Source of the DNA: a virus
Strand: one strand, 5' to 3'
DNA length: 64,000 bases
Virus record (IMG/VR): IMGVR_UViG_3300030202_003189
Location: 146,739 to 210,738 of that record
Both the position numbers and the translations under genes were made by a program. Under the pieces are notes generated by a model. The model saw nothing but the letters and a program-made list of their open reading frames with translations. It had not been told where the DNA came from and did no database searches. Below are positions 24,913-59,874 of this stretch, piece by piece (within the stretch, counting starts at the first letter, position 1; each line of letters opens with the position of its first letter).

Positions 24913-25881
24913 ATGAATAAAAATAAAAAAATAGGATGTTTAGATATAACAGCATTAAATTATGATGAAACTGTAGGGGTTGCTTGTGATAGATGTTGCA
25001 TAAAACCAGAACAGGACAATATCATAAAGGAAGTTCTCAATTTTATGTTATTTGGTAAAAGAGACCCGAATAAACCGATAGATTATTCAACATACGCTGT
25101 GTCAAAACTAGACAATGAACCACTCTTTAACCTACCTTCCCAAGCAAGAGAATATGGGTTACAAATAGGGTGTTTAGGTTTTCATGAACATATTATGAGG
25201 GGAAAAAAATTATATATGGCGTGTTCTTCTCATGAAGACGCTCTATCAGAAGATAGAGTTGAACCAACAGCCGAAGACTATGTTGAAAGTATAACAACAG
25301 AAGGGGTTGTACAGTGGTATAGATCTACAACAATTGAACAACAAGTAAAATTCTGTGAAGAAAAAATAAGTGAGGGTTATAGATGGAATCGTATAGATAG
25401 AATATGTAGTATGCCAAACAGGGATAATACAAACATAGGGAATCATCAGATAGTCGGATACGTAGATAATATACCTGTATGGTATACAAAAGGAGCCGCC
25501 ATGGAATATGCCAATGTAATAAAATGTGATGGATATTACTCCTATAATATGAATGGTACACTTGGATATATTGCTTGTGAGAATTATGATATTGTAAAAG
25601 AGAAACTACTAGGTGTAGAATGTAAAGGAACCAGAAAGATGTTAGACGGGACCTTAGCATTTGTTCAATTAGGTCAAATAAACGCAACTAAATATGGTGA
25701 GGCTTGTTGTCTAGAACAAGCACACCAAGGATATTTATGGAATGGAAGAGGATGTGTTAAAAATCAAATGGAACTAACATGGTCATGTATTGATAATTTA
25801 ACAACAGAAATCTATGATGGTACCGGTGAATATAAAACATTTGACGAATGTCTAATGTTCTGTGAAAAAAATAAAAAATAA
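24913..25881 (+). CDS. Cys-rich protein with one N-terminal GCLD repeat
   Basis: A 322-residue protein, family unknown. It opens with a single repeat unit (GCLDITALNYDETVG, then ACDRCC) and continues with about 20 cysteines spread over the chain, many in pairs (FCEEK, CC). The later part has a spaced pattern of short W/Y-rich segments ending in Cys, suggesting several small disulfide- or metal-stabilised modules. It lies between two GCTDP-repeat proteins, so it is probably part of the same fibre assembly. Confidence 0.68.
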   Translation: MNKNKKIGCLDITALNYDETVGVACDRCCIKPEQDNIIKEVLNFMLFGKRDPNKPIDYSTYAVSKLDNEPLFNLPSQAREYGLQIGCLGFHEHIMRGKKLYMACSSHEDALSEDRVEPTAEDYVESITTEGVVQWYRSTTIEQQVKFCEEKISEGYRWNRIDRICSMPNRDNTNIGNHQIVGYVDNIPVWYTKGAAMEYANVIKCDGYYSYNMNGTLGYIACENYDIVKEKLLGVECKGTRKMLDGTLAFVQLGQINATKYGEACCLEQAHQGYLWNGRGCVKNQMELTWSCIDNLTTEIYDGTGEYKTFDECLMFCEKNKK

Positions 25882-35264: not shown

Positions 35265-35278
35265 AAATTTTAGAGTTT

Positions 35279-35293
35279 GATATTTATAATAAA
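35279..35293 (+). promoter_or_regulatory. Candidate late promoter, exact copy of the pre-gp25 element
   Basis: GATATTTATAATAAA, identical to 7635-7649, lies in a 63-base gap before the structural gene at 35328. The exact 15-base recurrence 28 kb apart, both times just before virion genes, argues for function. Confidence 0.45.
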
Positions 35294-35327
35294 ATGAAAG
35301 ATAATATATTAAAGAAAATAAATTAAA

Positions 35328-37781
35328 ATGGGATATATAAAAAAAGATAGTGTAGCATATGTGAGTGCTAAATTAACAGACTATGGTAGAGAAAAATTAG
35401 CATTAGGTAGACTTAACTTTAGTTATTGGGGGTTTGGTGATTCTGAAATGGATTACGGAACTTTTGGTGATGATTATTCGTGGTTAAATAATGGAGCTGG
35501 TGGTAACGTTGATTTAGGTTTATTAAATATTCTACGACCAGCGGATAACCCTCCTGGACAAAGGTATCCTTTATTACGTGTTCCGGGTAATAGTGGAAGT
35601 AGTTACACCTCTATAAGTTCACCAGACGTACTTAAAACGATTATAAATAATCAAGCAGTAACAAGAGGATTTTTTACAGGGGCTACTAAAAATTCTACAT
35701 CTTATCCTGAACGTAAATACGATTACTTTGTCCAATCAGGAACATCCTACACTAAAGGTGTTGGGAAAACTAATTTAGCAAGTATTGTTAGAGCGGGTAG
35801 TAATGTTGTTAAAAGTACTGTACCGGGAACAACTGGTATTGATATAAATTTAGGACAAACTGGGGCTATAACAGATGTAAGTGTAAATGGAGTAGAACCA
35901 GTAGCTGGAGACTTTATGTTATTAGTACCAAACTCATTCGCTCTTTATCCTAATACAATTACACCAGATCCGGCTGTTTTTGTGAGTGATGGAACGACTG
36001 GTCCAGGGACAATAGATTCATCACAAGGTACACCATTTTTATGGTATAGAATAGTTGAGGTGACAGGTACTTTATCAGCTAACAGTCTAAAAGTTACTGT
36101 AGATAGATCAATACCTAATTTTACTGGGTCTACAACTACACAATATAGAGATTCCTATGTGTTCTTTTATGATGGAGGTGGGGTTAACCATAACCCTATT
36201 GACACTTATTACGGAACAGGTACAACAATTCCTTATTGGAATGAGTTAAGTTTATCATTTGACAGTAACTGTGATGTTTCTGTAAATGATGTTAAAATTT
36301 GGAATATGAATATTCCTTGGACAGAAACAGTTGCAGGGTTGACAGCATCAACACACGGAACAGTAGCAAATTTTGGTTCCACAGCCTACACTTCAACTAA
36401 AGAATATCTGGAGTACACAAAACCAGTATTTTCAGAATCTTATGGTGGAATCACAGATGACTATAGACAGAAATCTATTGCGGTTATACACTACACTAAT
36501 AATTCTATTTCTAATTTTTATGGAGAAGGATTTTACTGGTCAGAGACTGGAGTTAATAACTTCCAACTTACTTTACCAACCGTTATGTATAACTATACTG
36601 GGAATACAACGATGGGGTTGTTATTAACAGGAGAAACAAGAGTGACACCAAGAACTTTGGTATCAACATATAATTCAAATAGTGAAATTGATTATTATCA
36701 ATTACATACTTCCGGAGGAACATCTAATACTACAATAGGTGGTATATTAATTGAAAATTACACAGCCCCAGTTAGTGTTGGAAAGATATTTCCCGATCTA
36801 AAAATTGCAGTTATTGATGATGAGGAGATTGTTGCGGCGTTATCTTATAAGAGTAATAGAAACTGGGTTTTACCACAGTTAAAAGCAGATTATACGGCAG
36901 TGACTGGGAGTACGGCGGCTGAAGGAGTATCCCAAGCTGGAGACCAATTCTGGATAACTTACCAATTTACTAGTACTAGTGGATATACAAGTGGGATGTA
37001 CTGTAACAAATATACTTTCCTATCAATGGAAGCAACAAACTGTGACAATTGTGATGGGGCAAATAAAAATATTAAACTTACTTTCCCTTATGGTAGTTTA
37101 CCGTTTATGAGAAGAAATGGTATCGCTGCAGAATCAGGAGGACCAAATGATGAAAAATATTTAGGGTGGGAGGCAACAGGATTTGATATATTGATACAAA
37201 AAACTCAGAATAATGAACCACCAACTTCCACAGGGTGGAAAAGAATTCCAGTTGCTCAGGACGCGGCAGGTAATTCTATATTAAATTCATTTACAGATGG
37301 TGCCGGTGGAACAGACATGTTTGTTGATTATGAAATTTTATATAATGGAGAATTTGTAATAACAAAAGAGTATTTTGATAATTGTGTGATCACTGCGACC
37401 AGTCCATATACACCAGATTATGGTCTATTTAGTCTAAACGATTGGATTCATATGCCACTTTTAACAGACATGACAGACTCAACACCAACAGCAACTCTAA
37501 CTTTTGGAGATGAAAGATGGACGTATGGGAATGTAGATACAGACATTAAAGCAACGGTATTCCGTACAACATTCATGTTTACTGCAGCTGGTACAGACTT
37601 TAATACATCACAGAATCCTACATGGGGTACTGGTAGTGCAGACCCTGCACACAATGTAAGAATTAGTGAGGTATCAGTTTATGATAGTGAATTTAGAGAA
37701 GTCATTGTAGGAAAAATAAGTGATCCGATTGAGAAAAAACAGGATTCACAATTTACATTAGCGATGGGACTAGATTTTTAG
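35328..37781 (+). CDS. Structural protein sharing N- and C-terminal modules with its neighbours
   Basis: An 817-residue virion-block protein with two shared modules. Residues about 12-42 (AKLTDYGREKLALGRLNF, then YWGFGDSEMDY) match the starts of the genes at 37785 and 38284. Residues about 735-817 (FNTSQNPTWG, then ISEVSVYDSEF and SDPIEKK) match the C-terminus of the gene at 40494. The C-terminal pattern resembles a module in many phage structural proteins that ends in a (T/S)xIGLY-type strand, an AVAKLSxPI-type segment and a final LDF. The middle is beta-rich. A tail or neck decoration role is inferred. Confidence 0.7.
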   Translation: MGYIKKDSVAYVSAKLTDYGREKLALGRLNFSYWGFGDSEMDYGTFGDDYSWLNNGAGGNVDLGLLNILRPADNPPGQRYPLLRVPGNSGSSYTSISSPDVLKTIINNQAVTRGFFTGATKNSTSYPERKYDYFVQSGTSYTKGVGKTNLASIVRAGSNVVKSTVPGTTGIDINLGQTGAITDVSVNGVEPVAGDFMLLVPNSFALYPNTITPDPAVFVSDGTTGPGTIDSSQGTPFLWYRIVEVTGTLSANSLKVTVDRSIPNFTGSTTTQYRDSYVFFYDGGGVNHNPIDTYYGTGTTIPYWNELSLSFDSNCDVSVNDVKIWNMNIPWTETVAGLTASTHGTVANFGSTAYTSTKEYLEYTKPVFSESYGGITDDYRQKSIAVIHYTNNSISNFYGEGFYWSETGVNNFQLTLPTVMYNYTGNTTMGLLLTGETRVTPRTLVSTYNSNSEIDYYQLHTSGGTSNTTIGGILIENYTAPVSVGKIFPDLKIAVIDDEEIVAALSYKSNRNWVLPQLKADYTAVTGSTAAEGVSQAGDQFWITYQFTSTSGYTSGMYCNKYTFLSMEATNCDNCDGANKNIKLTFPYGSLPFMRRNGIAAESGGPNDEKYLGWEATGFDILIQKTQNNEPPTSTGWKRIPVAQDAAGNSILNSFTDGAGGTDMFVDYEILYNGEFVITKEYFDNCVITATSPYTPDYGLFSLNDWIHMPLLTDMTDSTPTATLTFGDERWTYGNVDTDIKATVFRTTFMFTAAGTDFNTSQNPTWGTGSADPAHNVRISEVSVYDSEFREVIVGKISDPIEKKQDSQFTLAMGLDF

Positions 37782-37784
37782 ATA

Positions 37785-38258
37785 ATGGGATTCACAAAAA
37801 CAAATACTGAGAATTTTGAAGTTTATTTAACCCCTATGGCTAGAGAAAAATTATATACTGGAAAAGGAGGGAAGATAAAGATTAAGTATTTTAGTTTACA
37901 TGATGGAGACATCAATTACACTAAATCGGCAAAAACACAGACTTTTGCCACAACTCCAGCTGGGAAATACACTGAAGTGCCAAACCTTAGAGGGGAACCT
38001 ACAACAATAGGGGTTAATGGGTGTCAAGTTTACCAGTTAGAAGATTTTATATTAAGAAAGGATACAATGAGTGATCAAAAATGTCCGGATGGGTATATTA
38101 AAAATGAGGTAGGTATATGTGTTAAAAACCCTCTTAATACACAACCTCCTAAGGAGAAAATAATAAAAAGAAAAAATAATGACATTACCAGAACGGCTAA
38201 CAGATTGGGAGGAAATAACTCGAGTGTTGGGATTATACCAGGAGGAAGTAGTTATTAA
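37785..38258 (+). CDS. Short paralogue: LTxxxREKLxxG module protein
   Basis: A 157-residue protein. It begins with the shared module (VYLTPMAREKLYTGKGGKI, then FSLHDGDINY), aligning with residues about 15-42 of the proteins at 35328 and 38284. It has a Cys pair (KCPDGYIKNEVGICV) near residues 105-118 and ends in a Gly/Ser-rich tail. It starts four bases after the previous stop. Because it is little more than the shared module plus a tail, it may define the minimal attachment unit of this family. Confidence 0.7.
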   Translation: MGFTKTNTENFEVYLTPMAREKLYTGKGGKIKIKYFSLHDGDINYTKSAKTQTFATTPAGKYTEVPNLRGEPTTIGVNGCQVYQLEDFILRKDTMSDQKCPDGYIKNEVGICVKNPLNTQPPKEKIIKRKNNDITRTANRLGGNNSSVGIIPGGSSY

Positions 38259-38287
38259 TAACATTAAATAAAAAATTATATAAATGG
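38251..38287 (+). repeat. Repeated gene leader, copy 1
   Basis: The 37 bases spanning the end of one gene and the start of the next are the same as 40461-40497 except at two positions. The core is TTAAATAAAAAATTATATAA followed directly by ATGG. It may be a conserved translation-initiation region, a promoter, or the trace of a gene-plus-leader duplication. Confidence 0.6.
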
Positions 38288-39882
38288 GATATCAACCTTC
38301 AGGAACCACAACTACACAAGTAACTATAGATGTAAAACTCACCAAACAGGGTAGAGAAAGATTAATCTATGGAAGTGGATCCAATATTGCTTATTTTACC
38401 TTACACGATGAAGGAATAAATTATACCTCCACATCCAAACCAACTAGAGGTAGAACACCAGAAGCGGCAGGAACTTTAAGCTCTAATTCAGGGGTGGCCG
38501 ATGGACAAGGTTTTAGAGATGTAATTCTAAGAGAAGTTATAGACGGAATGGGTAATCTTATTGAACAAACTGGAGTTAAACAAGTAAAGTTTGGTACGTC
38601 ATCTAAAGGATGGGGGTCCTTAATTGGATTAACTGCAGACACTGCTAGTTATAATAAGTTAAATGTAACCGTTAATTTGGATTACGCAATTAACTTTATG
38701 AAATGGTTAGCGGGACAAGTGGAACAGGGATCAACTATAGACTATAGTATGTTCTACGACACTAATAACCATCCAGCGTCCTCTCTTAAAGACGGATTCC
38801 TTAACTTTATGGATTACATAGAGATTGATACTGTAGATGAAACAACACAAGCAATACTTAATACAGAAAAAGATGAAATAGATGTATGTTTCTTATCAGA
38901 TAATGATAAGATATTAAATAGAAGTGTTAATAAATATAGTTCTGATTTACAGAAATATATTTTCATGTCTAAAGAAATGTTATACAGTAATGGAGGAAGT
39001 CCTGTAAATATAAGTTATCTTGATAACGCTATGGATAGTCCATTTAAGTTTGCATTCTCGTCAGGGAGAGATTCAACTGTTTCGGAATCGATAGGTAGAT
39101 TAACTAAAGATCCTTCACAAGCTAAACAAAGAGGTAAACTATATGGAGGAGCTGGTAAATGGGGGGTTAGTTTAGGTTCTACCGATTTTGTTTATGGTAT
39201 AAGGAGAAAGGATTGGAAGAGTGATGGTATTAATGGTTTATTTGACTCTGGAATATCGGCAGACGGAGGACAAAAGTCTGGTTTTATATCATATTTTGAT
39301 ATGGTTAACTATAATGATGGGGCCAATGCTATTAATACAGACTTAGATTTTATGGAACTTGATCCTGCTACCTACGAAAATAAAATGTTACCTAAGAGTA
39401 TTAGTAACCCAACAACGGATGTTCCATTATATGTGGGACAATCAATATTAACAAATAAGAATAAGGGATTCTATCCGAGAACTAGAGAAGGTAGTTATCC
39501 ATTTGCCATACCTGGATTAGAGATGTGTTCATTTGGTTCACAGGTAATCGCGGTACAAAATGACATAGTAGAAACATTCTTTAGAAGAACAAGTACTACT
39601 CCATATAATTTTACAAACTTATCCGCTAGTACATACCATACTAGTTTAAGTTTCATTGCAAAACCACGAACAATTAAAGCTTCTAGAGCTAATCCAATTA
39701 AAGAAGGGTTATTAACAGTAACTTTCAAATATAATAAATCCATAGCTGAGTCTACTATAGATTGGGGTATGAAGGCGGATTGGGCTTCGAGTTATAACTA
39801 TAATAATTTTGTAGTAAGAGAAAGAACTGATTACGGATTGTCATATACACACGCATTACCAGATCCAGTAGTGAGTTATTAA
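38284..39882 (+). CDS. Structural paralogue with N-terminal LTxxGRExL module
   Basis: A 532-residue protein whose residues about 16-45 (VKLTKQGRERLIYGSGSNI, then FTLHDEGINY) match the module in the proteins at 35328 and 37785. The rest is unrelated mixed alpha/beta sequence without Cys clusters. The gene has a 25-base intergenic leader that is duplicated before 40494. It is probably one of a set of related proteins that occupy equivalent sites on the tail or neck. Confidence 0.7.
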   Translation: MGYQPSGTTTTQVTIDVKLTKQGRERLIYGSGSNIAYFTLHDEGINYTSTSKPTRGRTPEAAGTLSSNSGVADGQGFRDVILREVIDGMGNLIEQTGVKQVKFGTSSKGWGSLIGLTADTASYNKLNVTVNLDYAINFMKWLAGQVEQGSTIDYSMFYDTNNHPASSLKDGFLNFMDYIEIDTVDETTQAILNTEKDEIDVCFLSDNDKILNRSVNKYSSDLQKYIFMSKEMLYSNGGSPVNISYLDNAMDSPFKFAFSSGRDSTVSESIGRLTKDPSQAKQRGKLYGGAGKWGVSLGSTDFVYGIRRKDWKSDGINGLFDSGISADGGQKSGFISYFDMVNYNDGANAINTDLDFMELDPATYENKMLPKSISNPTTDVPLYVGQSILTNKNKGFYPRTREGSYPFAIPGLEMCSFGSQVIAVQNDIVETFFRRTSTTPYNFTNLSASTYHTSLSFIAKPRTIKASRANPIKEGLLTVTFKYNKSIAESTIDWGMKADWASSYNYNNFVVRERTDYGLSYTHALPDPVVSY

Positions 39883-47858: not shown

Positions 47859-48410
47859 ATGAAGAAATACATATTAATAATTTTTGGAGAGGTTAGTGAA
47901 GAGATAATTATGGAAACGCTTTCGGATCTAGAGGAAGTTAGCGATAACATAAGGTTTTTTACAGGTCCAGGACACGGTATTTATCATTTTGAGAGTAAGG
48001 AAACTGCAACAGAAATTAAGAATATAATAATAGATTATTTGGGTGATACAATACAATCAGTCTTTATTTTCGCATTAGAAGGTGATTATGCCATAGGTAT
48101 GGATGAGGAACTAAGAAGATATTTCTTAGATGCTAAATTTGGAAATGAAAGTTCCACCGAAAGATTAGATAAGTTGAAAGAGACTTACATTGATTTTATA
48201 AAGAATACTGAGGAGGACAATATTGAAGAAAAAATAGGTGTCATACCACTTAAGGAGTTATTAAAAAGACATTTGGATGGGTTACCAGATAAACCTTTAA
48301 GTGTTGATAGTATACTTGATAAGATATTAGAAAAGGGATTGGAATCACTAACCAAAAGAGAAAAGAACTTTCTCGATAACCAAAAAAGAATATTAGATGG
48401 TAAAAAATAA
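47859..48410 (+). CDS. Hypothetical protein with a DUF6576-like C-terminal motif
   Basis: A 183-residue protein. The first 90 residues form an alpha/beta domain (KKYILIIFGEVSEE at the start, then an FFTGPGHGIYHFESKE strand-turn). The C-terminus, SVDSILDKILEKGLESLTKR followed by EKNFL, resembles a short helical motif common at the ends of Bacteroidetes proteins such as rhomboid proteases (DUF6576), of unknown role. It is preceded by a good host-type promoter and overlaps the methyltransferase start by 14 bases. Confidence 0.7.
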   Translation: MKKYILIIFGEVSEEIIMETLSDLEEVSDNIRFFTGPGHGIYHFESKETATEIKNIIIDYLGDTIQSVFIFALEGDYAIGMDEELRRYFLDAKFGNESSTERLDKLKETYIDFIKNTEEDNIEEKIGVIPLKELLKRHLDGLPDKPLSVDSILDKILEKGLESLTKREKNFLDNQKRILDGKK

Positions 48411-49227
48411 TAAAGTATATCATATCGATGCAATACATGGATTATTAAGTTTGGAGGATAATACAGTAGATTTGGTTATAACTTCACCACCCTACGCAGA
48501 CATGAAGAAATATGTAGATGGAAGTGAAGGGATACCAGTAAAACAATATGTGATGTGGTTAATGGATTACGTTAGAGAGATAGAAAGAGTACTGAAACCA
48601 ACAGGTAGTTTCATCTTAAATATAAATGATAAAGTAAGTAACAAATTTAGAGATCCTTACGTTTATGAACTTGTATACAAAATCACAAACTCAACACCAC
48701 TTAAACTATACGAGAGATTATTTTGGAATAAAGGAAAAGGATTATCCCACCCAAAAAGATTTGGGGATAAGATAGAATATCTTTTTTGGTTTGCAAAAAC
48801 AGAGAACTTTACCTTTAATATAGATGAAATGAGAGTACCATACAGTGAATCATCTCTAAAGAGATTTAAGAAACCAATTAAGAAAAGGTATAATAGAACA
48901 GAAGGAGATGATAAGGTAGAATATAAAGATTGGGGACCAAACCCAAAAGGTGCTTTACCATCTACCTTAGTAAACATTGGTTCTGAATCTAAAAGAATTT
49001 CTGATAATCATATTGCTGTTTACCCAGAACAACTAACTGATTATTTCATAAAAGGGGCAACAAATGAGGGTGATCTTGTGTTAGACCCTTTTATGGGTAG
49101 TGGAACTACAGGAGTGTCATCTAAGAAATTAAAAAGAAACTGGATTGGTTTTGACAGTATAGAAGAATATGTTAATTTCGCCAATAAAAGAATAGAATCC
49201 ACTAAAATTAGTGACAAAATGTCATAG
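48397..49227 (+). CDS. Beta-class DNA methyltransferase, probably N4-cytosine
   Basis: A predicted S-adenosylmethionine-dependent modification enzyme. The 276-residue protein has the catalytic motif IV TSPPY (residues 29-33) near the N-terminus and the AdoMet-binding motif I region LDPFMGSGTTG (229-239) near the C-terminus, the order of the beta class. The TSPPY form is more typical of N4-cytosine enzymes, while adenine enzymes usually have DPPY, but this is not decisive. No restriction endonuclease is adjacent, so it is likely an orphan enzyme protecting phage DNA or altering its regulation. Start ATG lies inside the end of the preceding gene. Confidence 0.85.
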   Translation: MVKNNKVYHIDAIHGLLSLEDNTVDLVITSPPYADMKKYVDGSEGIPVKQYVMWLMDYVREIERVLKPTGSFILNINDKVSNKFRDPYVYELVYKITNSTPLKLYERLFWNKGKGLSHPKRFGDKIEYLFWFAKTENFTFNIDEMRVPYSESSLKRFKKPIKKRYNRTEGDDKVEYKDWGPNPKGALPSTLVNIGSESKRISDNHIAVYPEQLTDYFIKGATNEGDLVLDPFMGSGTTGVSSKKLKRNWIGFDSIEEYVNFANKRIESTKISDKMS

Positions 49228-49276: not shown

Positions 49277-50080
49277 ATGAGTAATAAATTTATAAGTAAC
49301 GATGAAGAGTCAATAACAAAATATTTTAAGGATGTTAGAAAAGAAAGTCTATTAAGTCCTGATGAAGAGATTGAGTTGGCTAAGATGATACAAGAAGGGG
49401 ATCAGAAGGCCATGGATAAAATGGTAAAGTCAAACCTTAGATTTGTCATATCAGTCGCTAAACAATATCAAAATAAAGGATTAAATTTAAGTGATTTAAT
49501 TGCTGAGGGTAATCATGGTCTAATGAAGGCCGCTTTAAGATTTGATCACACAAAAGGATTTAGATTCATTTCTTATGCTGTATGGTGGATAAAACAAACT
49601 ATAACACAGTCATTGAATGAAAATTCTAGAACAATACGGATTCCCGTAAACGTTATAACAGAGAATCAGAAGTTATATAAGGAATTACAAAAAGCTTCAT
49701 CTTATGACGAAGAAGAAAAGATAAGAGAAAACTCTACAGCAAAACATATGCCAACAACAACATCGTTATTTACAAAAATAGACGATGAAGGGTCAGAACT
49801 TATTGACCTTATTGAGGACGAAAGCTGTAAAAGACCTGATTTTTGTAAAGACGAAGAAATCCAACTTAAAAAAGAATTAGACGGAGTCCTAAACATACTA
49901 TCTCAAAGAGAACAAGATATAATAAGAAGATATTTTGGACTATATGGTGAAAATCAAACATTAGAGGCTATTGGAGAGGAGTATTCTCTTACAAAAGAAA
50001 GAATTAGACAAATTAAAGAGAAAGCAATACGTAAATTAAGAAATAATTCTTTTTCCCTCTTCAGGTTCATGGAAGATTAG
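49277..50080 (+). CDS. RpoD-like sigma factor (Bacteroidetes type)
   Basis: A phage-encoded RNA polymerase sigma factor. The 267-residue protein has a short region 1.2 (ESITKYFKDVRKESLLSPDE). Full region 2 follows at about 55-115, including NLRFVISVAKQYQNKGLNL, DLIAEGNHGLMKAA and FISYAVWWIKQ. Region 3 is shortened, running into a 3.2-like finger (DEGSELIDLIEDES). Region 4 ends in a helix-turn-helix at about 227-255 (TLEAIGEEYSLTKERIRQIK). The layout and length are those of Bacteroidetes housekeeping RpoD (about 287 residues), not of T4 gp55. The loss is mainly in region 3.1. It sits near gp46/47, so it may replace gp55 as late sigma (inference). Confidence 0.9.
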   Translation: MSNKFISNDEESITKYFKDVRKESLLSPDEEIELAKMIQEGDQKAMDKMVKSNLRFVISVAKQYQNKGLNLSDLIAEGNHGLMKAALRFDHTKGFRFISYAVWWIKQTITQSLNENSRTIRIPVNVITENQKLYKELQKASSYDEEEKIRENSTAKHMPTTTSLFTKIDDEGSELIDLIEDESCKRPDFCKDEEIQLKKELDGVLNILSQREQDIIRRYFGLYGENQTLEAIGEEYSLTKERIRQIKEKAIRKLRNNSFSLFRFMED

Positions 50081-51375: not shown

Positions 51376-51996
51376 ATGAAAACAAATAAAAAGAAATATA
51401 TTCTTGGAGAAGGTCATTACACAAGTAAGGAAAATAAAAAGACTAAGATTATTTTAACTAATTCTTTAACTCCGGATATGCGTTTCTTTGAAGGTTGGAA
51501 ACTTAGAAGAAATGGTAATTATAAAAAAGTAACCCCATATACTGTTGATAAAGACGGTACCATATACGAACATTTTAACTCAAAGTACTATTCAGAGTAT
51601 ATGAAGTCAGAGAAGATCGATAAGGAAACTATATTAATTACTTTAGTGAATGAGGGTTGGCTAACGAAAGATTCACATTCAAATAGGTATAAAGACTGGA
51701 GTGGTAATATTTATAAAGGAAAGAATATAATTAAAAAAGAATGGAGAGGATATTTTTTTTGGGCACCATACACCAATAAGCAAATGGAAGCTGTTGGTAG
51801 ATTAGTGGAGTTTCTTTGTGATGAGTACAATATAGAAAAAAATTCTTTATCACATAATGTAATGTTTACAGAAGCACCATCTTTTAATGGAGTTCTTAGT
51901 AGAAGTAATTTTTCTAGAAAATACAAAGATGTATCACCTTCATTTGATTTTAGTTACATTGATAATAAACTATTAAAAGAGATTAAAAATGACTAA
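51376..51996 (+). CDS. Amidase_2-like protein with altered active site
   Basis: A 206-residue protein with the order of N-acetylmuramoyl-L-alanine amidases: an initial strand IILTNSL where active enzymes have a His pair, YTVDKDGTIYEHFNSKYY, the central ITLVNEGWL strand matching the family's (E)L-x-N-E-G, a YTNKQMEAVGRLVEFLC helix, and SHNVMF near 156, where a zinc His is expected. The first His pair is replaced by Thr-Asn, so the usual zinc site is incomplete. It could be a divergent endolysin, a peptidoglycan-binding relic or an inactive paralogue. Homology is judged by eye. Location in the envelope gene set fits a lysis role. Confidence 0.5.
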   Translation: MKTNKKKYILGEGHYTSKENKKTKIILTNSLTPDMRFFEGWKLRRNGNYKKVTPYTVDKDGTIYEHFNSKYYSEYMKSEKIDKETILITLVNEGWLTKDSHSNRYKDWSGNIYKGKNIIKKEWRGYFFWAPYTNKQMEAVGRLVEFLCDEYNIEKNSLSHNVMFTEAPSFNGVLSRSNFSRKYKDVSPSFDFSYIDNKLLKEIKND

Positions 51997-52512: not shown

Positions 52513-52821
52513 ATGGAATTTATTAAAAAGTTTTGGAAGTTTATAGTTGCGGTGTTTGGTTTTATTCTTGGTTTAGTTTGGTTTATGAATGCCAACTCTA
52601 GTAAAAAAGTTAAAAAGATTAAGAAGAACATTAAGAGTAACGAAAAGAAAACCAAAGAAGTTCAGAAGAAGATTAAAAAGATTAAAAAAGACAAAAAAGT
52701 TACTAAGAAAAAAATCTCAGAGACAGATAAAAAATTAAAAGAAATTAAGGATAAAAAACCAGTAGTTAAAAAGAAAACAGCTAAAGATGCTGCGACGTCA
52801 TTAAAAAACCGAATTAAATAA
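52513..52821 (+). CDS. Membrane-anchored Lys-rich coiled-coil protein
   Basis: A 102-residue protein with a single N-terminal transmembrane helix (about 5-26) and then an almost uninterrupted Lys-rich heptad coil (repeats of KKIKK and KKTKE type) to the C-terminus. This shape, a short anchor plus rod, is that of an inner-membrane spanin or a holin-linked protein, but also of simple membrane-DNA tethers. It is encoded between the acidic protein and the exported-protein genes. Function unknown. Confidence 0.68.
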   Translation: MEFIKKFWKFIVAVFGFILGLVWFMNANSSKKVKKIKKNIKSNEKKTKEVQKKIKKIKKDKKVTKKKISETDKKLKEIKDKKPVVKKKTAKDAATSLKNRIK

Positions 52822-52822
52822 T

Positions 52823-54127
52823 ATGAAAAAAGTTTTATCATTACTATTAAGTCTAATAACCCTTACATTAACAGCACAAACTTGGACAGCAACAGACATG
52901 AATGGTGTGTCATACGACCTATCCACTTATACATCAACTCAAGGCGGAGGTATTAAGGCTACATTGGTAGATATATCTGCTCATTGGTGTGGACCCTGTT
53001 GGGGTTGGCATACAGGTGGTGTTATGGAGGAATTATATCATGATTTTGGTCCTAATGGAACAGATGAGTTTATGGTATTCTTTATAGACGGAGACGCTGG
53101 GTCATCAGTATCTATATTAAATGGTGCTGGAAGTAGTCAAGGTGATTGGGTTACAGGAACCCCTTACCCTTTAATTGGTCCAAATGGTCAAGGAGCGTCT
53201 GTAGCGAGTAATTATACTTTCCCAGGATATCCCACACTATTTTTACATTGTGGTACGCCAATAGCCCCAGAAATACAAAGATCAGAGAAATGGGTATTTT
53301 GGGATGAGGTACTAAATTGTTCCCAAGCTTTTCAATGGCAAAATCCAGATGCGACAATGTTATTACATCACGGTATGCAAATATGTGAAGCTGGTAATGA
53401 ACTAGATGTAGAGATATATAATGCAAGTGCCTATGTTAGTTTAACTTCAGCACAAATAGAATTAAGAGACCCAAGTGGTGTGTTAGTACACACTCAAACA
53501 TGGCAAGGAAGTTTACAACCTCTTACTAAAGGAACAATTACCTTAAATTATTTAATAACGACACCAGGAACTTGGACTACTAAGGTAATTATGCCAAATG
53601 GAGTCACAGATACTAGACCTAATGGAGATGAGGAAAACGTAGAAGTAATTTTAGGTCCTAGTAATATACATCAAGACTTAACGGTGAATATAATAACAGA
53701 TTCTTATGGTTCAGAAACTACTTGGTCTATAAGCGATGGTAACGTCTCCTATATGTCAGGAGGACCTTACAGTGATGGTACAACAGTACAAACACCATTA
53801 ACAGGAACAATACCAGCAAATGCTTGTGTAACATTTAAGATAGAAGATTCATATGGTGATGGTATCTGTTGTGCTTATGGGAATGGGTCTTATACTATTA
53901 CTGATGGTAATGGAACAATAGTTGCAACAGGAGGACAGTTTGGTTCTAAAGAAGAAGTTATATTCCAAATAGAAAATACAACAGTAGGAATAGATGAGAT
54001 GATATATGTAGAAGAGAATGATAATAGGATTTTTGATATGTTAGGTAGAGAATGGAAATGTGATTTTATTGACTTACCAATAGGAATGTATATTATTAAC
54101 AATAATAAAATATTCAAAACAAAATAA
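52823..54127 (+). CDS. Exported thioredoxin-fold protein with T9SS-type C-terminal domain
   Basis: A 434-residue secreted protein. A Sec signal peptide (residues 1-18) ends in TLTA before Gln19. Next comes a thioredoxin-like domain with an intact WCGPC motif (Trp55-Cys59), a beta-sandwich region, and at about 285-385 a domain with DSYGDGICCAYGNGSY, a pattern common in secreted Flavobacteriia proteins. The last 45 residues (NRIFDMLGREWK, then PIGMYIINNNKIFKTK) look like a type-A T9SS sorting domain. So the protein should cross the inner membrane by Sec and the outer membrane by the host type IX system. This is highly unusual for a phage gene; its virion or host role is unknown. Confidence 0.78.
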   Translation: MKKVLSLLLSLITLTLTAQTWTATDMNGVSYDLSTYTSTQGGGIKATLVDISAHWCGPCWGWHTGGVMEELYHDFGPNGTDEFMVFFIDGDAGSSVSILNGAGSSQGDWVTGTPYPLIGPNGQGASVASNYTFPGYPTLFLHCGTPIAPEIQRSEKWVFWDEVLNCSQAFQWQNPDATMLLHHGMQICEAGNELDVEIYNASAYVSLTSAQIELRDPSGVLVHTQTWQGSLQPLTKGTITLNYLITTPGTWTTKVIMPNGVTDTRPNGDEENVEVILGPSNIHQDLTVNIITDSYGSETTWSISDGNVSYMSGGPYSDGTTVQTPLTGTIPANACVTFKIEDSYGDGICCAYGNGSYTITDGNGTIVATGGQFGSKEEVIFQIENTTVGIDEMIYVEENDNRIFDMLGREWKCDFIDLPIGMYIINNNKIFKTK

Positions 54128-54131
54128 AAAA

Positions 54132-54923
54132 ATGAAAAAGTTACTATTAGTATTATTAGTCTTAATAGGACTACAAACACAAGCACAAATTAACATATGT
54201 GATTCCGTTTCGATTAGCGGTCCACAATATCAACCAACTATCGAGGTTAACAACATCAATACAATTATGATGTATTGGGAAACTACAGGAAGTGATGGAC
54301 TGTATACCTTATCTGAAGATAGTATGACGAATCAACACTTGGTATATAATTACAACTCAACAACTGGTCTACCTTATGATACTATCCTAACGTGTGCTAA
54401 CACCAACTTAACTACATGTTGTTGGACATTTATATGGGATGCAACAATGTGGATGAGAATGGGTGTACAACAACCTTATTTTTGTTGTGATTCAATCACA
54501 TATTGGACTGACCAAAGTCAAGGATTAACTGTTGGTCTTGATACAACAAACATGATTCACAATCCTGACTCTATGACAGTATATTGGGGAGTATGTACTG
54601 GATATGCAGGAGGTGGTATATGTTATGCAGGAAATGGTATAAGTGATTATTTTCCTCAAGTTACAACATCAGATACAATCAAAGTTGGTTATGATGTATA
54701 TATTTACGAGAACGGTGTAGCAGAATCATGTAGTATCGAAGAATGGTTGATATTTGATGGAACTAATTGGGTATTACTTAATATGAACCCAACATCTATC
54801 AATGAAATAACATTTAATAAAGTTAATGATGGAAAGATATACGACTTAATGGGTAGAGAATTAAAAGAAATTCCAGTAGGTAAAATGTATATTAGAAATC
54901 AAAAATTATACATAACTAGATAA
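54132..54923 (+). CDS. Second exported protein with T9SS-type C-terminal domain
   Basis: A 263-residue secreted protein with a Sec signal peptide (1-18, cleavage after TQA) and a Cys-containing beta-rich middle (eleven Cys, including two adjacent pairs). The C-terminus, KIYDLMGRELKEIPVGKMYI followed by RNQKLYITR, is a clear match to the type-A T9SS sorting signal (YDLLGR, then a strand with YI-x-N-x-K). It starts four bases after the thioredoxin-type protein's stop and overlaps the next start by one base (ATAATG), so the two are co-translated. The middle domain is not recognised. Confidence 0.78.
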   Translation: MKKLLLVLLVLIGLQTQAQINICDSVSISGPQYQPTIEVNNINTIMMYWETTGSDGLYTLSEDSMTNQHLVYNYNSTTGLPYDTILTCANTNLTTCCWTFIWDATMWMRMGVQQPYFCCDSITYWTDQSQGLTVGLDTTNMIHNPDSMTVYWGVCTGYAGGGICYAGNGISDYFPQVTTSDTIKVGYDVYIYENGVAESCSIEEWLIFDGTNWVLLNMNPTSINEITFNKVNDGKIYDLMGRELKEIPVGKMYIRNQKLYITR

Positions 54924-55414
54924 TGAAAAGAATATTTTTAACATTAGCATTAGGGTTAGGATTACTAACAGCTAACGCACAACAAATAGATAGACTAGCA
55001 GGACCTAGAGTTGGTGTAACTTTTTTAACACCTGGATTTATGTCAGAGGAATTAGAAACAAGTATGATTACACAATATGGTTGGCAATGGGAATCAAGAT
55101 TTGCAGATAACGGAAGTATTGCAGGACTAGTAGAATGGGTTGTAGTTGTAGGTGGAATGGAACAACAAATGTTTTTACCATCCATATCCTCTCTTGTAGG
55201 GATTAGAACAGGTGAAGGAATGGAATATGCAGTAGGACCAAATTTATCAGCAACAGGAATCAATATGGTATTTACAATAGGTAAAAATTTCAAATCAGGA
55301 GACTTAAATTTTCCTGTTAATTTAGCATTTGTTCCAAATGGTAATGTATGGGGTGAAGATGAAGAATCAGGAGCTAGGATATCAATTATGGTAGGATTTA
55401 ATATGGGTAAATAA
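54923..55414 (+). CDS. Exported, probable outer-membrane beta-strand protein
   Basis: A 163-residue protein with a signal peptide (1-19, ending ANA before Gln20). The mature part alternates hydrophobic and polar residues with Gly (GRNIS-like strands such as GPNLSATGINMVFTIG and ISIMVGFNMGK), as in small outer-membrane barrels. The C-terminus does not end in the usual aromatic residue. A phage-made outer-membrane protein could block receptor use by competing phages; that is inference. One-base overlaps join it to the genes on both sides. Confidence 0.65.
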   Translation: MKRIFLTLALGLGLLTANAQQIDRLAGPRVGVTFLTPGFMSEELETSMITQYGWQWESRFADNGSIAGLVEWVVVVGGMEQQMFLPSISSLVGIRTGEGMEYAVGPNLSATGINMVFTIGKNFKSGDLNFPVNLAFVPNGNVWGEDEESGARISIMVGFNMGK

Positions 55415-55788
55415 TGAAAAAGTTAGTTTTAATTTTAATGTTGTTAACCCCAGTATGGGCATTCACTCAGACTCATACTTTCAGTGAAATTGAAGTAGTA
55501 AAAATGGACTCCTTATTTCAAGTATATGAACAAAATGATAGTCTACAAAAATTAGAAATATCACTTCTAAAAACCCAACTTACCAATTATCAAAAACTTA
55601 ACGAACAAGATAGTATACACTTAATGTATTTGAATGATAATATCGTATTATTAAATCAAAGAATAGATCTTTATGTAGACCTAACTAAAGAGTTAGAACC
55701 AAAATGGTTTAAGAAACCAGTTTTCCAATTTATACTAGGGGCGGCAACCATAGTTACTTCGTCCTGGGTAGTTTCAAATATAAAGTAA
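55414..55788 (+). CDS. Exported coiled-coil protein with C-terminal membrane helix
   Basis: A 124-residue protein with a signal peptide (about 1-17), a periplasmic coil rich in Leu, Gln and Asn (about 25-95), then PKWFKKPVFQ and a hydrophobic C-terminal segment at about 103-121. The signal-coil-anchor shape recalls spanin-like or cell-wall-associated phage proteins with a KPWYKKP-type pre-helix segment seen in other Bacteroidetes phages. It closes the run of four exported genes. Confidence 0.68.
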   Translation: MKKLVLILMLLTPVWAFTQTHTFSEIEVVKMDSLFQVYEQNDSLQKLEISLLKTQLTNYQKLNEQDSIHLMYLNDNIVLLNQRIDLYVDLTKELEPKWFKKPVFQFILGAATIVTSSWVVSNIK

Positions 55789-56161: not shown

Positions 56162-56677
56162 ATGAACTTAAGAGACTCAATAAGAAAAAAACTTGAAGAA
56201 GAAGAATGTGGTGTTGGTATGTACTGGTGTCCAATAGGTGGTAAATGTGTTTCAGAAAGTAAAAAGAAAAGAAAAAAAGAACAAACAACTGCAGGAGCTG
56301 CTGGAGCTTATTCACAACCCCTTTTTGGTAAACCAATGAAAAGAAAAATCGCAGAAAATAATGTAAGAATTAAAGAGTCTGAGTTAATCTCATTAATAGA
56401 AAAATCTATCTATAGTGCACAACATGGAGGAGTTATAAAAGAGGCGTTGACAGATGCGGACGAAAAAAGAATTGGGGTGTTAGCTAGAAAAGAACTAAAA
56501 GACTACGAAACCAAACTAGAAAAGAAAATTGATCAACTTATAACAAAGTCATTCAAAGGAAAAGATTTTGAAGATAAGACTCTTAAGATTGCAAGAAATG
56601 CGATTGTACAATTATATAAGGCTTTATGGATTAGAAGAAGTTTCTGGACAGACTATCTTAAGAATGTACCATCATAA
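56162..56677 (+). CDS. Protein with an N-terminal Cys motif and helical C-terminal domain
   Basis: A 171-residue protein. It opens with a basic helix (LRDSIRKKLEEEE) and a short Cys motif (CGVGMYWCPIGGKC). A Lys-rich stretch and KESELISLIEKSI follow, a variant of the KLxES motif. The C-terminal domain (about 100-171) is a long amphipathic helix set (KRIGVLARKELKDYETKLEKK, ending LYKALWIRRSFW). That C-terminal pattern is common to hypothetical proteins in other marine T4-like phages and may be a scaffold or core element. Its stop overlaps the next start by one base. Confidence 0.65.
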   Translation: MNLRDSIRKKLEEEECGVGMYWCPIGGKCVSESKKKRKKEQTTAGAAGAYSQPLFGKPMKRKIAENNVRIKESELISLIEKSIYSAQHGGVIKEALTDADEKRIGVLARKELKDYETKLEKKIDQLITKSFKGKDFEDKTLKIARNAIVQLYKALWIRRSFWTDYLKNVPS

Positions 56678-59600
56678 TGAAAAACATTGTAAAGAAAGAC
56701 TTAATAAGGGCAATCAAACTAAACGAACAGATTGAGGAACAAACAACATCTGGAGATGCTGGATCTTACGTCACTCCTCAAGTTTGGGCAAAAACAACAA
56801 GTGACTTAAAGTCAGTCAACGATCCAAACTGGCCGAAATATGGAGGACCAGGAGCTCAGTATGTAAAAGTAAAGAAAAAGTGTAGAACATTCCCTTATTG
56901 TAATCAAGGAGATATAAACGCACTTGAATTTTATGGACCGACTAAGAAAAAGAAAAAAAGTAAAAAAAGAAAGAGTAAAAAGAAAAGTACAACCCCTTTA
57001 GCAAGAAGAAAGAGAAAAATATCAAAGGATTTAGTTAGAACACAAAGAATAAAAACACCTAGAGGAAAACATTATAACATTGGAAGATGGATTAATGAAA
57101 ACAATGGATATTTATATTATAATGACGCACTAACTCTTGAGGAAGTTCGGTCAGCTATGTTAGAAAATACTATGAGAAAAAACATTACAAATAGATACGC
57201 CTCTTTTACTGATGATAGGACTCAGGGACTGCAATTAGAAGAAGCAACACGAAGATCCTTAAATAAATATCTATTCGAGGATTGTGCTACTTGTGATGCA
57301 ACAGGAGGGTATTATTGTGGAGACGACGTTAATAATTGGACAAACTACTCACCTCAAGGATGTGTTCCATGGTATTATATAGGGGACAATATAAATGATT
57401 GTCAAGATGGTGCAGACGAAATGCCAGGAAATAGAGACCCTAATACAGGGGCTGGTATAAATAACTGTTCTCAAGGACCACCACTACCAATTCTTGGATG
57501 TACTGACCCAACAGCAGATAATTATGATGCAACCGCTACTCAAGATGATGGCAGTTGTACTTTTACTGTTTTAGGGTGTATAGATCCACATGCTAACAAT
57601 TTTGACCCATTAGCTACTGTAGATGATGGTTCATGTACATATGATGTTAAAGGATGTATGGATGATACTGCTAATAACTTTAACCCACTAGCAACTATAG
57701 ATGCTGGTAATTGTACTTATGATGTATATGGTTGTACCGATAAAAACGCATGTAACTTTAATCCTGCTGCAACAATAGATGATGGGAGTTGTGATATGCC
57801 ATCACCGGGTAATCCTTGTACTCCTAATGTAGTCCAAGGATGTACAGATCCAATGGCGATAAATTATAATCCTAATGCAAATCAAGATGATGGAAGTTGT
57901 GCGTACGACATATATGGATGTAATCAAGACTCTGCAATAAATTACAATCCTACTGCAACAATAGATGATGGTAGTTGTGAATATCCTGTTGTAAATCCAT
58001 GTATAGATCTTGATAAATATGTGGACGGACTTGGAGTATCAAAAGATAAATTTTGTAGCGAGTGTGGACCAGGTGGAGATTTTGAGAAAGATGAAATGTG
58101 TACGTGTTGTGATGAAAAACCTGAAATTCTAACTTGTGATGAGTTTCAAGAAAACGAACAAATGGTAGACCAAATCTGTTCTCTTTGTGATACAGATAAC
58201 TCAATTGATGATGCTAATTCAATCCCTAGTAATAATCCACTAGTAAGTATGTATTGTGATTGTTGTACCATGATGAATCAACAATCTCCAGTAACAAGTA
58301 CTTTTGGGTGTGCCACAGACTTCGCAAATTACCTAGAACAAGATATGGAAGGTGTATCTAAAAATTTATTCTGTAACAAATGTGTAGATGAAGAATTTTA
58401 TAACGACCATGATTTTGCATGTGACTGTTGTGAAGAAGAAGAAGATGAATCAGAAGGAGTAGGAGGAGGAGATATTGCAGTTGGGGGACAATCACAAGGA
58501 AAACCAAACAAATCAGAATGTGATTTATCTTGGGAGAGTCCTTGTTCACAAAAACATCTTGGACAATTTACAGGAGGAGTTGACCAACTAAAAGACTGGG
58601 TACATAAAAGAGCGGATGGTTTTAAGAGTACAGGATGTAAACATTTACAAAATGTTGTTAACTGGTTAACCAATCAATTAAATAGTGGAGTGACAGGTAA
58701 AGGTGAACCATTAACTAAAATAGCTATAAGGAGAAAAACGGCAAAAAGAGAATGGGCAATATGTCAAGCTTCACAATGTGGTTGTAAGATTAACATACCA
58801 ACTTTAGAACCTACAATAGGAGGAACAACAGGAGGACCTACACCAACAGGAGGACCTACACCAACAGGAGGACCCACAAACCAAACAGGGGTGATACCTT
58901 GTTGGGGATGTGTAAATGGGACTATAGAACAACACGGAGAGTTGGGTGGAACAACAGGGTTTAATAACTCTAATGTTAACGGAATGTGTGGAACAATGAA
59001 TGGAGTTACTTACTACGATAGAAAAGAACATCCACAACTAGAAAATTGTGGACTACAAGATATAAATCTTCAGGAACAAAAAATTAAAGAATCACGAAAA
59101 AAAATAATTAATATGAAACTAACAGAACAAAGTAATAAAAAACCACAAGGGTATAGAATTTACGCTAAGGCTCATGAAATGAGTGGTAAATCTAACGACG
59201 AAGGTTTAGCAATAGCTAAAAAGAAAATAAAAAACTTCATGAAATTTGATGATAAAGGATCAGAGGTAGACCCAAAAATGTATAGAAACAGTAAAAAACA
59301 GGATGAGTTTGTTGAAGATGTTTATTACAGTTCTGGACAAACGGGACTTAAGTTTAATCATGAACTTTCCGACCAACAGAAAGAAAGAATGGGAGACTAT
59401 TTGAAAGGGTCATCTAAGACAGGTAATGCTGTTAGCGGGGACGTTGCTAATGTTACAACAACAAATGCTGAGGGAGGTGCTAATAACACAGGCGAAATGT
59501 TGGCTAGAGCGGCTAAAAGAAGAGCAGAAAAAGAGGATATGGGTATGAGAATGGCTAATAATGATAGAAGATACTCACCAGATACTCAGGTAACAACTAA

Positions 59601-59874
59601 CGCTCCACTTGTAAAACTAAAAGAGGATGTGATAGATACTCCAAAACAAATTCTTAATTTAATACCAAGAAATTATAAGAAAGATGGTATAATTTTCGAA
59701 ATTACAAACGGAACAGAAACTAAGACAGTTAAGTATGAATCGTTCAAAGGTAAGAAAGGAGGACATATCATTATTTTAGATTCGATTAATCCTGGTGAAC
59801 TTAATGAACAACTAAGTAGAATGAAAACCCTAATCAATCATAGTTCAAAAACAAGACATGATAAATTTAGATAA
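56677..59874 (+). CDS. 1065-residue modular protein: LDL-A-like module plus six GCTDP repeats
   Basis: Domains in order: a short N-terminal helix (VKKDLIRAIKLNEQIEE) like the KLxES motif; a very basic region (about 88-125); an LDL-receptor-A-like module at about 203-248 (GYYCGDD, then CVPWYYIGDNINDCQDGADE); six GCTDP repeats at about 274-434; several Cys-rich segments (about 440-640); a helical domain at about 640-700; a Pro/Gly/Thr-rich linker with GGPTPT repeats; then a charged C-terminal region. It lacks a signal peptide, so the Cys-rich modules are made in the cytoplasm. A virion location is likely given its neighbours. This is the most complex protein in the window; its role is unknown. 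Confidence 0.75.
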   Translation: MKNIVKKDLIRAIKLNEQIEEQTTSGDAGSYVTPQVWAKTTSDLKSVNDPNWPKYGGPGAQYVKVKKKCRTFPYCNQGDINALEFYGPTKKKKKSKKRKSKKKSTTPLARRKRKISKDLVRTQRIKTPRGKHYNIGRWINENNGYLYYNDALTLEEVRSAMLENTMRKNITNRYASFTDDRTQGLQLEEATRRSLNKYLFEDCATCDATGGYYCGDDVNNWTNYSPQGCVPWYYIGDNINDCQDGADEMPGNRDPNTGAGINNCSQGPPLPILGCTDPTADNYDATATQDDGSCTFTVLGCIDPHANNFDPLATVDDGSCTYDVKGCMDDTANNFNPLATIDAGNCTYDVYGCTDKNACNFNPAATIDDGSCDMPSPGNPCTPNVVQGCTDPMAINYNPNANQDDGSCAYDIYGCNQDSAINYNPTATIDDGSCEYPVVNPCIDLDKYVDGLGVSKDKFCSECGPGGDFEKDEMCTCCDEKPEILTCDEFQENEQMVDQICSLCDTDNSIDDANSIPSNNPLVSMYCDCCTMMNQQSPVTSTFGCATDFANYLEQDMEGVSKNLFCNKCVDEEFYNDHDFACDCCEEEEDESEGVGGGDIAVGGQSQGKPNKSECDLSWESPCSQKHLGQFTGGVDQLKDWVHKRADGFKSTGCKHLQNVVNWLTNQLNSGVTGKGEPLTKIAIRRKTAKREWAICQASQCGCKINIPTLEPTIGGTTGGPTPTGGPTPTGGPTNQTGVIPCWGCVNGTIEQHGELGGTTGFNNSNVNGMCGTMNGVTYYDRKEHPQLENCGLQDINLQEQKIKESRKKIINMKLTEQSNKKPQGYRIYAKAHEMSGKSNDEGLAIAKKKIKNFMKFDDKGSEVDPKMYRNSKKQDEFVEDVYYSSGQTGLKFNHELSDQQKERMGDYLKGSSKTGNAVSGDVANVTTTNAEGGANNTGEMLARAAKRRAEKEDMGMRMANNDRRYSPDTQVTTNAPLVKLKEDVIDTPKQILNLIPRNYKKDGIIFEITNGTETKTVKYESFKGKKGGHIIILDSINPGELNEQLSRMKTLINHSSKTRHDKFR
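57283..57420 (+). other. LDL-receptor class A-like module
   Basis: Within the 1065-residue protein, residues about 203-248 follow the class A pattern: Cys pairs, a GYYCGDD turn, then CVPWYYIGD and DCQDGADE, where the Asp and Glu residues are the calcium ligands of the family. This module is common in animals and also occurs in secreted Bacteroidetes proteins; it is rare in phages. Based on motif recognition only. Confidence 0.55.
57496..57978 (+). repeat. Six coding repeats, GCTDPxA...DDGSC type
   Basis: Six consecutive units in the 1065-residue protein, beginning GCTDPTADNY, GCIDPHANNF, GCMDDTANNF, GCTDKNACNF, GCTDPMAINY and GCNQDSAINY, each closing with D(D/A)G(S/N)C. A longer spacer separates units four and five. 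The unit is the same as in the tail-fibre protein at 25887, which links the two regions. Confidence 0.85.

Follow-up and report, generated by a model that had tools for sequence, protein, structure and literature searches.

Short C-terminal signals on two secreted-type proteins of a giant marine phage point to cargo of the host type IX secretion system

Two adjacent genes of an uncultured, giant marine phage, presumably of Bacteroidota, probably encode cargo of the type IX secretion system (T9SS) of the host, as judged from their sequences and homologues. Bacteroidota send tagged proteins via the T9SS onto the cell surface, and the system also drives gliding and polymer degradation. Our assignment rests on gene structure, signal-peptide-like N-termini, homology, the class of the C-terminal tail, conservation and genomic context. 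A preliminary description of this DNA had proposed phage-encoded T9SS cargo carrying type A sorting signals and had known of no described phage system of the kind. The core of that proposal is borne out by bacterial homologues that bear C-terminal T9SS signals (CTDs), by the match of the tails to the short class of CTD and by a protein with a canonical CTD in the same phage; the type A class and the undescribed status are both given up below.

The window analysed here is the whole stretch of 64,000 nucleotides, bases 146739-210738 of the 231,285-base virus record IMGVR_UViG_3300030202_003189, and positions are those of the window unless the record is named. Because the same record encodes terminase, portal, major head/capsid, contractile sheath and baseplate proteins, it is a large tailed phage (231-kb, jumbo). 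As first described, two adjacent open reading frames (ORFs) of 434 aa (52823-54127) and 263 aa (54132-54923) lie on the plus strand, with Sec-type N-termini whose predicted cleavage follows LTA and TQA (MKKVLSLLLSLITLTLTA/QT and MKKLLLVLLVLIGLQTQA/QI). Judged by inspection, both N-termini consist of a lysine, a hydrophobic run and then an A/Q junction. The C-terminal segments quoted in that description are also present, within the conserved tails NTTVGIDEMIYVEENDNRIFDMLGREWKCDFIDLPIGMYIINNNKIFKTK and NPTSINEITFNKVNDGKIYDLMGRELKEIPVGKMYIRNQKLYITR of proteins 1 and 2. The two genes, their parts and their neighbours are as follows:

51376-51996, plus strand: Amidase_2 endolysin-like gene (PF01510, E 1.9e-8, above cut-off), upstream, two genes beyond the spanin-like gene
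52513-52821, plus strand: small membrane-anchored coiled-coil protein, weakly Rz-spanin-like (phrog_739, E 1.2e-5), directly upstream of protein 1
52823-54127, plus strand: protein 1, 434 aa, predicted secreted thioredoxin-like protein with a CUB-like domain and a short T9SS C-terminal signal (ORF, homology)
52823-52876, plus strand: predicted Sec signal peptide of protein 1, residues 1-18, LTA/Q (sequence; aligns with bacterial signal peptides)
52985-52999, plus strand: WCGPC thioredoxin active-site motif of protein 1, residues 55-59 (alignment; weak PDB thioredoxin match)
53678-53992, plus strand: CUB-like domain of protein 1 (TVNIITDSYGSETTWS..DSYGDGICC), residues 286-390, common to many viral proteins
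53975-54124, plus strand: short CTD of protein 1 (NTTVGIDEM..RIFDMLGREWK..LPIGMYIINNNKIFKTK), residues 385-434 (tail alignment, profile, position)
54132-54923, plus strand: protein 2, 263 aa, predicted secreted protein with a short T9SS C-terminal signal and two exchangeable body modules (ORF, homologues)
54132-54185, plus strand: predicted Sec signal peptide of protein 2, residues 1-18, TQA/Q (homologue alignment)
54795-54920, plus strand: short CTD of protein 2 after the PT/SI junction (SINEITFNKVNDGKIYDLMGRELKEIPVGKMYIRNQKLYITR), residues 222-263 (tail alignment, profiles)
54923-55414, plus strand: 163-aa signal-peptide protein, outer-membrane-like (ORF); a relative with 66% identity also lies 3' of the protein 1 homologue in a 297-kb virus
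55414-55788, plus strand: 124-aa signal-peptide protein with a C-terminal hydrophobic segment (ORF)

The phrog_739 match of the coiled-coil protein is possibly driven by composition; by synteny, this gene also precedes a thioredoxin/short-CTD gene in other viruses. A sigma-70 family factor (49277-50080; regions 1.2, 2 and 4) is encoded in the window a short way upstream of the amidase and cargo genes, and an adenine-specific DNA methyltransferase-like gene lies at 48397-49227. A search for the Bacteroidota promoter consensus returned 6 sites against 4.4 expected and carries no information.

The body of protein 1 supplies evidence that is independent of the tail profile, and we regard it as decisive. 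Residues 17-417 are homologous to flavobacterial secreted proteins of about 500 aa (33-38% identity), and a search of 299 genomes from the order of a Crocinitomicaceae MAG gave matches in 262, some over single domains only. The best 12 homologues are about 500 aa long and all 12 possess a signal peptide, WCGPC, a CUB-like domain and a canonical CTD; TIGR04183 scores 41-45 bits (cut-off 23) on each of the three that were scanned. Their long CTD (VYPNPA...GSYIV...KNVVVK) begins at the junction where the phage short tail begins, and this body-tail junction aligns between protein 1 and the bacterial proteins (FGS.E..F.....GI.E). From the canonical CTDs of these homologues we therefore conclude that protein 1 belongs to a family of bacterial T9SS cargo as one of its phage members, its long CTD swapped for a short one. 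The WCGPC motif at residues 55-59, which had been pointed out from the letters alone, is invariant across the bacterial homologues aligned. Protein 1 scores 14 bits with the Pfam thioredoxin model, below the cut-off of 23.5, its bacterial homologues match ResA/TlpA models weakly, and the thioredoxin region is unfolded in an AlphaFold model of protein 1 built on a 15-row alignment (pLDDT 52). Among viruses, a 72% identical homologue is encoded in the 297-kb record, and most viral proteins with a CUB-like domain of this type end in a long CTD.

Neither protein matches TIGR04183 or PF18962, even at E = 1, which removes both tails from type A, the class to which they had been assigned. Searches with these two models had also been put forward as the check on the cargo proposal as a whole; taken literally their outcome is negative, yet it is uninformative as a refutation because bacterial short-tail proteins score nothing either. 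Seven such proteins, from Prevotellaceae, other Bacteroidales and marine Flavobacteriales, gave no TIGR04183 match (7/7), nor did PF18962 match any of those scanned with Pfam (6/6). Several of these proteins missed by the models have bodies typical of secreted cargo, namely peptidase C10, GH16 and BspA-type LRR.

To our knowledge, short CTDs have been shown to function in Prevotella intermedia only. The T9SS signals of this species fall into two classes, long and short, the latter with 43-55 residues (Ye et al. 2025, PMC11969387). The short class has a PT/GI cleavage site in which Ile is most conserved, a motif B with a fixed Gly and Tyr, a motif D of GxY followed by Ile and a motif E with a fixed basic residue; its cargo is demonstrated to be cleaved and glycosylated, and P. 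intermedia is named as the sole species reported with both CTD lengths (PMC11969387). Aligned to this definition, the phage tails present motifs B, D and E in order at the extreme C-terminus and fall in the 40-55 residue class. The residues D, G, E, P, G, I and K are invariant in the tail alignment; motif D is an exact GMYI in protein 1 and GKMYI, with one extra residue, in protein 2. A putative cleavage-type junction with Ile at +2 reads TTV/GI in protein 1 and NPT/SI in protein 2, and the junctions of other tail carriers read PT/NI, PT/SI and PT/GI.

The likeness among tails is not put down to chance, because the tail profile reaches 76-94 bits on this phage and turns up again in further viral records. 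With tail models made from bacterial sequences alone, the two window proteins take first and second place among 250 phage ORFs: the Flavobacteriales model gives them E 2e-16 and 2e-10, the Prevotella model 2e-15 and 4e-5, against E 0.02 for the best reversed decoy. For phage against Prevotella tails, hhalign gives 98.8%. All these values are optimistic and partly circular because the bacterial tails had been gathered with the phage profile. Comparison of short with long CTDs by hhalign yielded probabilities of 0.7% and 8.5%, that is, no significant relationship.

When the tail alignment was used to scan 84,980 bacterial and archaeal genomes (GTDB), 22 loci were confirmed, every one of them in Bacteroidota (22/22) and every match stopping 0-6 residues before the stop codon (22/22); where the 5' end is complete, nearly all carriers begin with what looks like a signal peptide. 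SprA, the T9SS translocon, is present in all six tested bacterial genomes with such tails and was not found in the phage itself. Only 2 of 198 Bacteroidota genomes surveyed carry the tail at E <= 1e-4, which rejects the idea that this tail style is general across the phylum; for the same reason the host must belong to a lineage that reads the short tail. The scan of viral contigs found 30 loci, with the tail at or near the C-terminus in 20 of the 20 examined, and the tail is constant across these contigs while the bodies vary. Related viruses, for example, carry it on a different thioredoxin-like protein (224-234 aa, YWCGTC), which passes the Pfam cut-offs for AhpC/TSA and thioredoxin and is encoded directly or one gene downstream of a relative of the coiled-coil gene that precedes protein 1.

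Homologues of protein 2, which is small and beta-rich, were found on 16 viral contigs, and Met1, Ala18 and Gln19 are invariant among the 15 homologues aligned. Some relatives have the first half of the body only and some the second only; the window protein has both. Throughout the family the signal peptide and the tail are kept while the body modules change, the tail being the most conserved part. A relative (45% over 150 aa) is encoded on a bacterial MAG contig (CAMBDW010000009.1), and the lineage of this MAG may be close to the phage host. Besides the protein 2 relative, the MAG has several short tails and 45 TIGR04183 matches. An AlphaFold model of protein 2 (15-row alignment, bacterial loci excluded, pLDDT 61) places C-terminal strands at residues 235-237, 252-255 and 258-261, which would fit a three-stranded short CTD, weakly. 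Foldseek against the PDB found no match at E <= 0.001, only Ig/FnIII-like noise.

A canonical CTD is found in the same phage outside the window, at the C-terminus of a 1262-aa protein (record 33021-36809), where it scores 46.8-51.9 bits with TIGR04183 (cut-off 23) and 45.7 bits with PF18962 (cut-off 27). The TIGR04183 domain of this protein is accompanied by a signal peptide, CUB-like domains and many GCTD..A.NYNP repeats. Downstream of the cargo gene follow genes for a 363-aa signal-peptide protein that resembles an outer-membrane beta-barrel and for a 93-aa membrane protein, then one more small gene and that of a 125-aa thioredoxin-like protein:

Record 33021-38910 (L002:5022-10911): long-CTD cargo module

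Repeats like those of the long-CTD cargo also occur in signal-peptide-less proteins of the window (56677-59874 and 24913-25881).

A viral scan with the protein 1 family reached 179 contigs, chiefly via the CUB-like domain, and TIGR04183 was above cut-off in 37 of 40 viral records searched, 38 of which had been drawn from this CUB-dominated scan. Among the 80 uncultured viral loci retained, relatives of the 363-aa protein occur in 59, of the 93-aa protein in 55 and of the 125-aa protein in 57. A stringent local model detects the long CTD in 50 of the 65 cargo ORFs whose 3' end is intact, and most others show the motif by eye. A search of 199 bacterial genomes, run without a positive control, gave no hit for the 363-aa protein, and GenBank phages gave none either. 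Against GenBank phages, tblastn gave no match for either window protein, nor for the cargo of a 60-kb phage and both outer-membrane protein homologues of the 363-aa type. The 37 of 40 records suggest that CTD cargo is frequent within one section of the marine virosphere and has escaped notice, in part because short CTDs slip past the standard tail models. A wider proposal, to which we give even chances, is that uncultured marine Bacteroidota phages share a T9SS-dependent surface-remodelling/lysis module, often next to a holin gene. It would comprise Sec/T9SS cargo with a CUB-like domain and a CTD, a phage-specific outer-membrane-like protein of ~350 aa and two small proteins, one a membrane protein and one thioredoxin-like. 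The same kind of cargo would have been miniaturised independently in this jumbo phage, with short CTDs attached to exchangeable bodies, a secreted thioredoxin among them.

The neighbourhood of the two genes raises the possibility, which we hold to be real but rather doubtful, that both proteins act in lysis: secreted at a late stage, they would weaken the outer surface, and the CTD would do no more than place them at the outer membrane. Amidase and spanin-like genes lie directly upstream, and a holin homologue occurs within 5 kb in 22 of the 80 related viral loci; neither protein, however, has a lytic domain, the spanin match is weak and a neighbourhood alone is insufficient to assign a role. 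It is unlikely that Sec simply delivers the proteins to the periplasm or the outer membrane and that their tails are inherited relics or folding caps unread by the T9SS. Such tails could well go undetected by standard CTD models, as these do, but a relic would hardly be better conserved than any other part of the protein 2 family, in which bodies are exchanged, nor recur on unrelated bodies, nor end secreted proteins of Bacteroidota (peptidase C10, GH16, BspA-type LRR) with SprA present where tested. Very improbable, in our view, is that these are virion components that only resemble secreted host proteins: GCTD-type repeats of the long-CTD protein are also found in a protein of cyanophage S-CAM3 annotated as virion structural, but the Sec signal peptides are clear and would be unexpected on proteins assembled in the cytoplasm, and the bacterial homologues are secreted cargo. 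A misjoin of bacterial DNA into the viral contig, conceivable for a metagenome-derived record with bodies that have bacterial homologues, is rejected, with next to no probability left to it, by the phage structural genes on the same record and by the synteny of the same genes, alongside other phage-shared genes, in independent viral contigs.

Taking proteins 1 and 2 as T9SS cargo, we infer the following course. The infected Bacteroidota cell would make both proteins, and Sec would carry them over the inner membrane with loss of the signal peptide. In the periplasm they would be recognised through the C-terminal short CTD of ~42-46 residues (motif B 'YDLMGRE', D 'GxY/GKMYI', E 'K..(K/R)'), pass through the SprA/PorV translocon of the host and be cut after the PT/SI or TTV/GI-type junction, to stay on the cell surface or leave it, as suggested by P. 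intermedia. Protein 1 is a phage version of a thioredoxin-like secreted cargo common in flavobacteria, with a short CTD in place of the long one. The most likely purpose would be to remodel the outer surface of the infected cell at a late stage, for example by blocking adsorption or by helping to open the outer membrane at lysis. The amidase and spanin-like genes upstream, and the holin often found beside the long-CTD module of other phages, suggest that the genes are expressed late and act to remodel or open the outer surface; this lysis-gene neighbourhood, together with the phage-specific outer-membrane protein that accompanies long-CTD cargo, is what points to remodelling. Surface exclusion, as proposed for Cryophage, is a possible alternative role, by analogy; effects on gliding, adhesion or disulfide reduction, conjectured in the preliminary description, may be others.

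Two further features of the record were observed. On its minus strand, at ~84356-92535 (L007:4356-12535), lies a set of genes for a surface sugar of acetamidino or aminated type (UDP-GlcNAc 2-epimerase, PseC/LegC-like aminotransferase, N-acetyl sugar amidotransferase WbuX, AglZ/HisF2, HisH and a sugar dehydratase), which could alter the surface glycan of the host. A full-length DnaK chaperone of 621 aa is encoded at 222889-224754 (L011:17889-19754; 966 bits, above cut-off).

If the cargo reading is true, a phage that addresses proteins to the host surface would have a direct route to alter adsorption, exclude rivals or open the outer membrane, and the finding supplies named, testable genes. 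What appears to be new is that phages use the short tail, that a thioredoxin is among their cargo, and the module with its wide occurrence: the literature searched, which covers few subscription journals and preprints, yielded no phage short CTDs, no phage thioredoxin-like T9SS cargo and no shared module. HBP35 of Porphyromonas gingivalis, a bacterial virulence protein, resembles protein 1 in having a thioredoxin motif. It is T9SS cargo, and the last 22 residues of its CTD carry the signal (PMC5445135).

The idea of phage T9SS cargo is itself not new, because Cryophage cargo was reported in 2020; the statement that no phage system of this kind had been described is overturned by that report (PMC7468147) and by one on a BACON cluster of crAss-like phages (PMC6949934, 2019). 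According to the available text of the former, Cryophage is a 76-kb Bacteroidetes phage encoding T9SS sorting-domain proteins, as the present phage appears to do, and these are proposed to exploit the secretion system of the host, with superinfection exclusion as a possible function (Bellas et al. 2020, PMC7468147). In that text the sorting domains are of type A, on an endoglucanase, a GH39 protein and a PA14 protein among the variable genes, and, unlike in the present phage, no short CTD, thioredoxin cargo or conserved module is described (PMC7468147). The crAss-like cluster likewise has T9SS sorting domains on phage contigs, mentioned in passing on proteins near BACON ORFs, and its protein families differ from those found here (PMC6949934). 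The closest likeness in the tail is to the short CTDs of P. intermedia, which share with the phage tails the length (43-55 aa), the PT/GI site, motifs B, D and E and the lack of dependence on a long beta-sandwich, but which belong to bacterial chromosome genes and have GxY as motif D, whereas the phage protein 2 family has GKMYI. For protein 1 as a whole, the flavobacterial secreted thioredoxin-like proteins (TIGR04183) present the same order of signal peptide, WCGPC, CUB-like domain and C-terminal signal at 33-38% identity, and differ in ending with a long canonical CTD where the phage protein has a short one.
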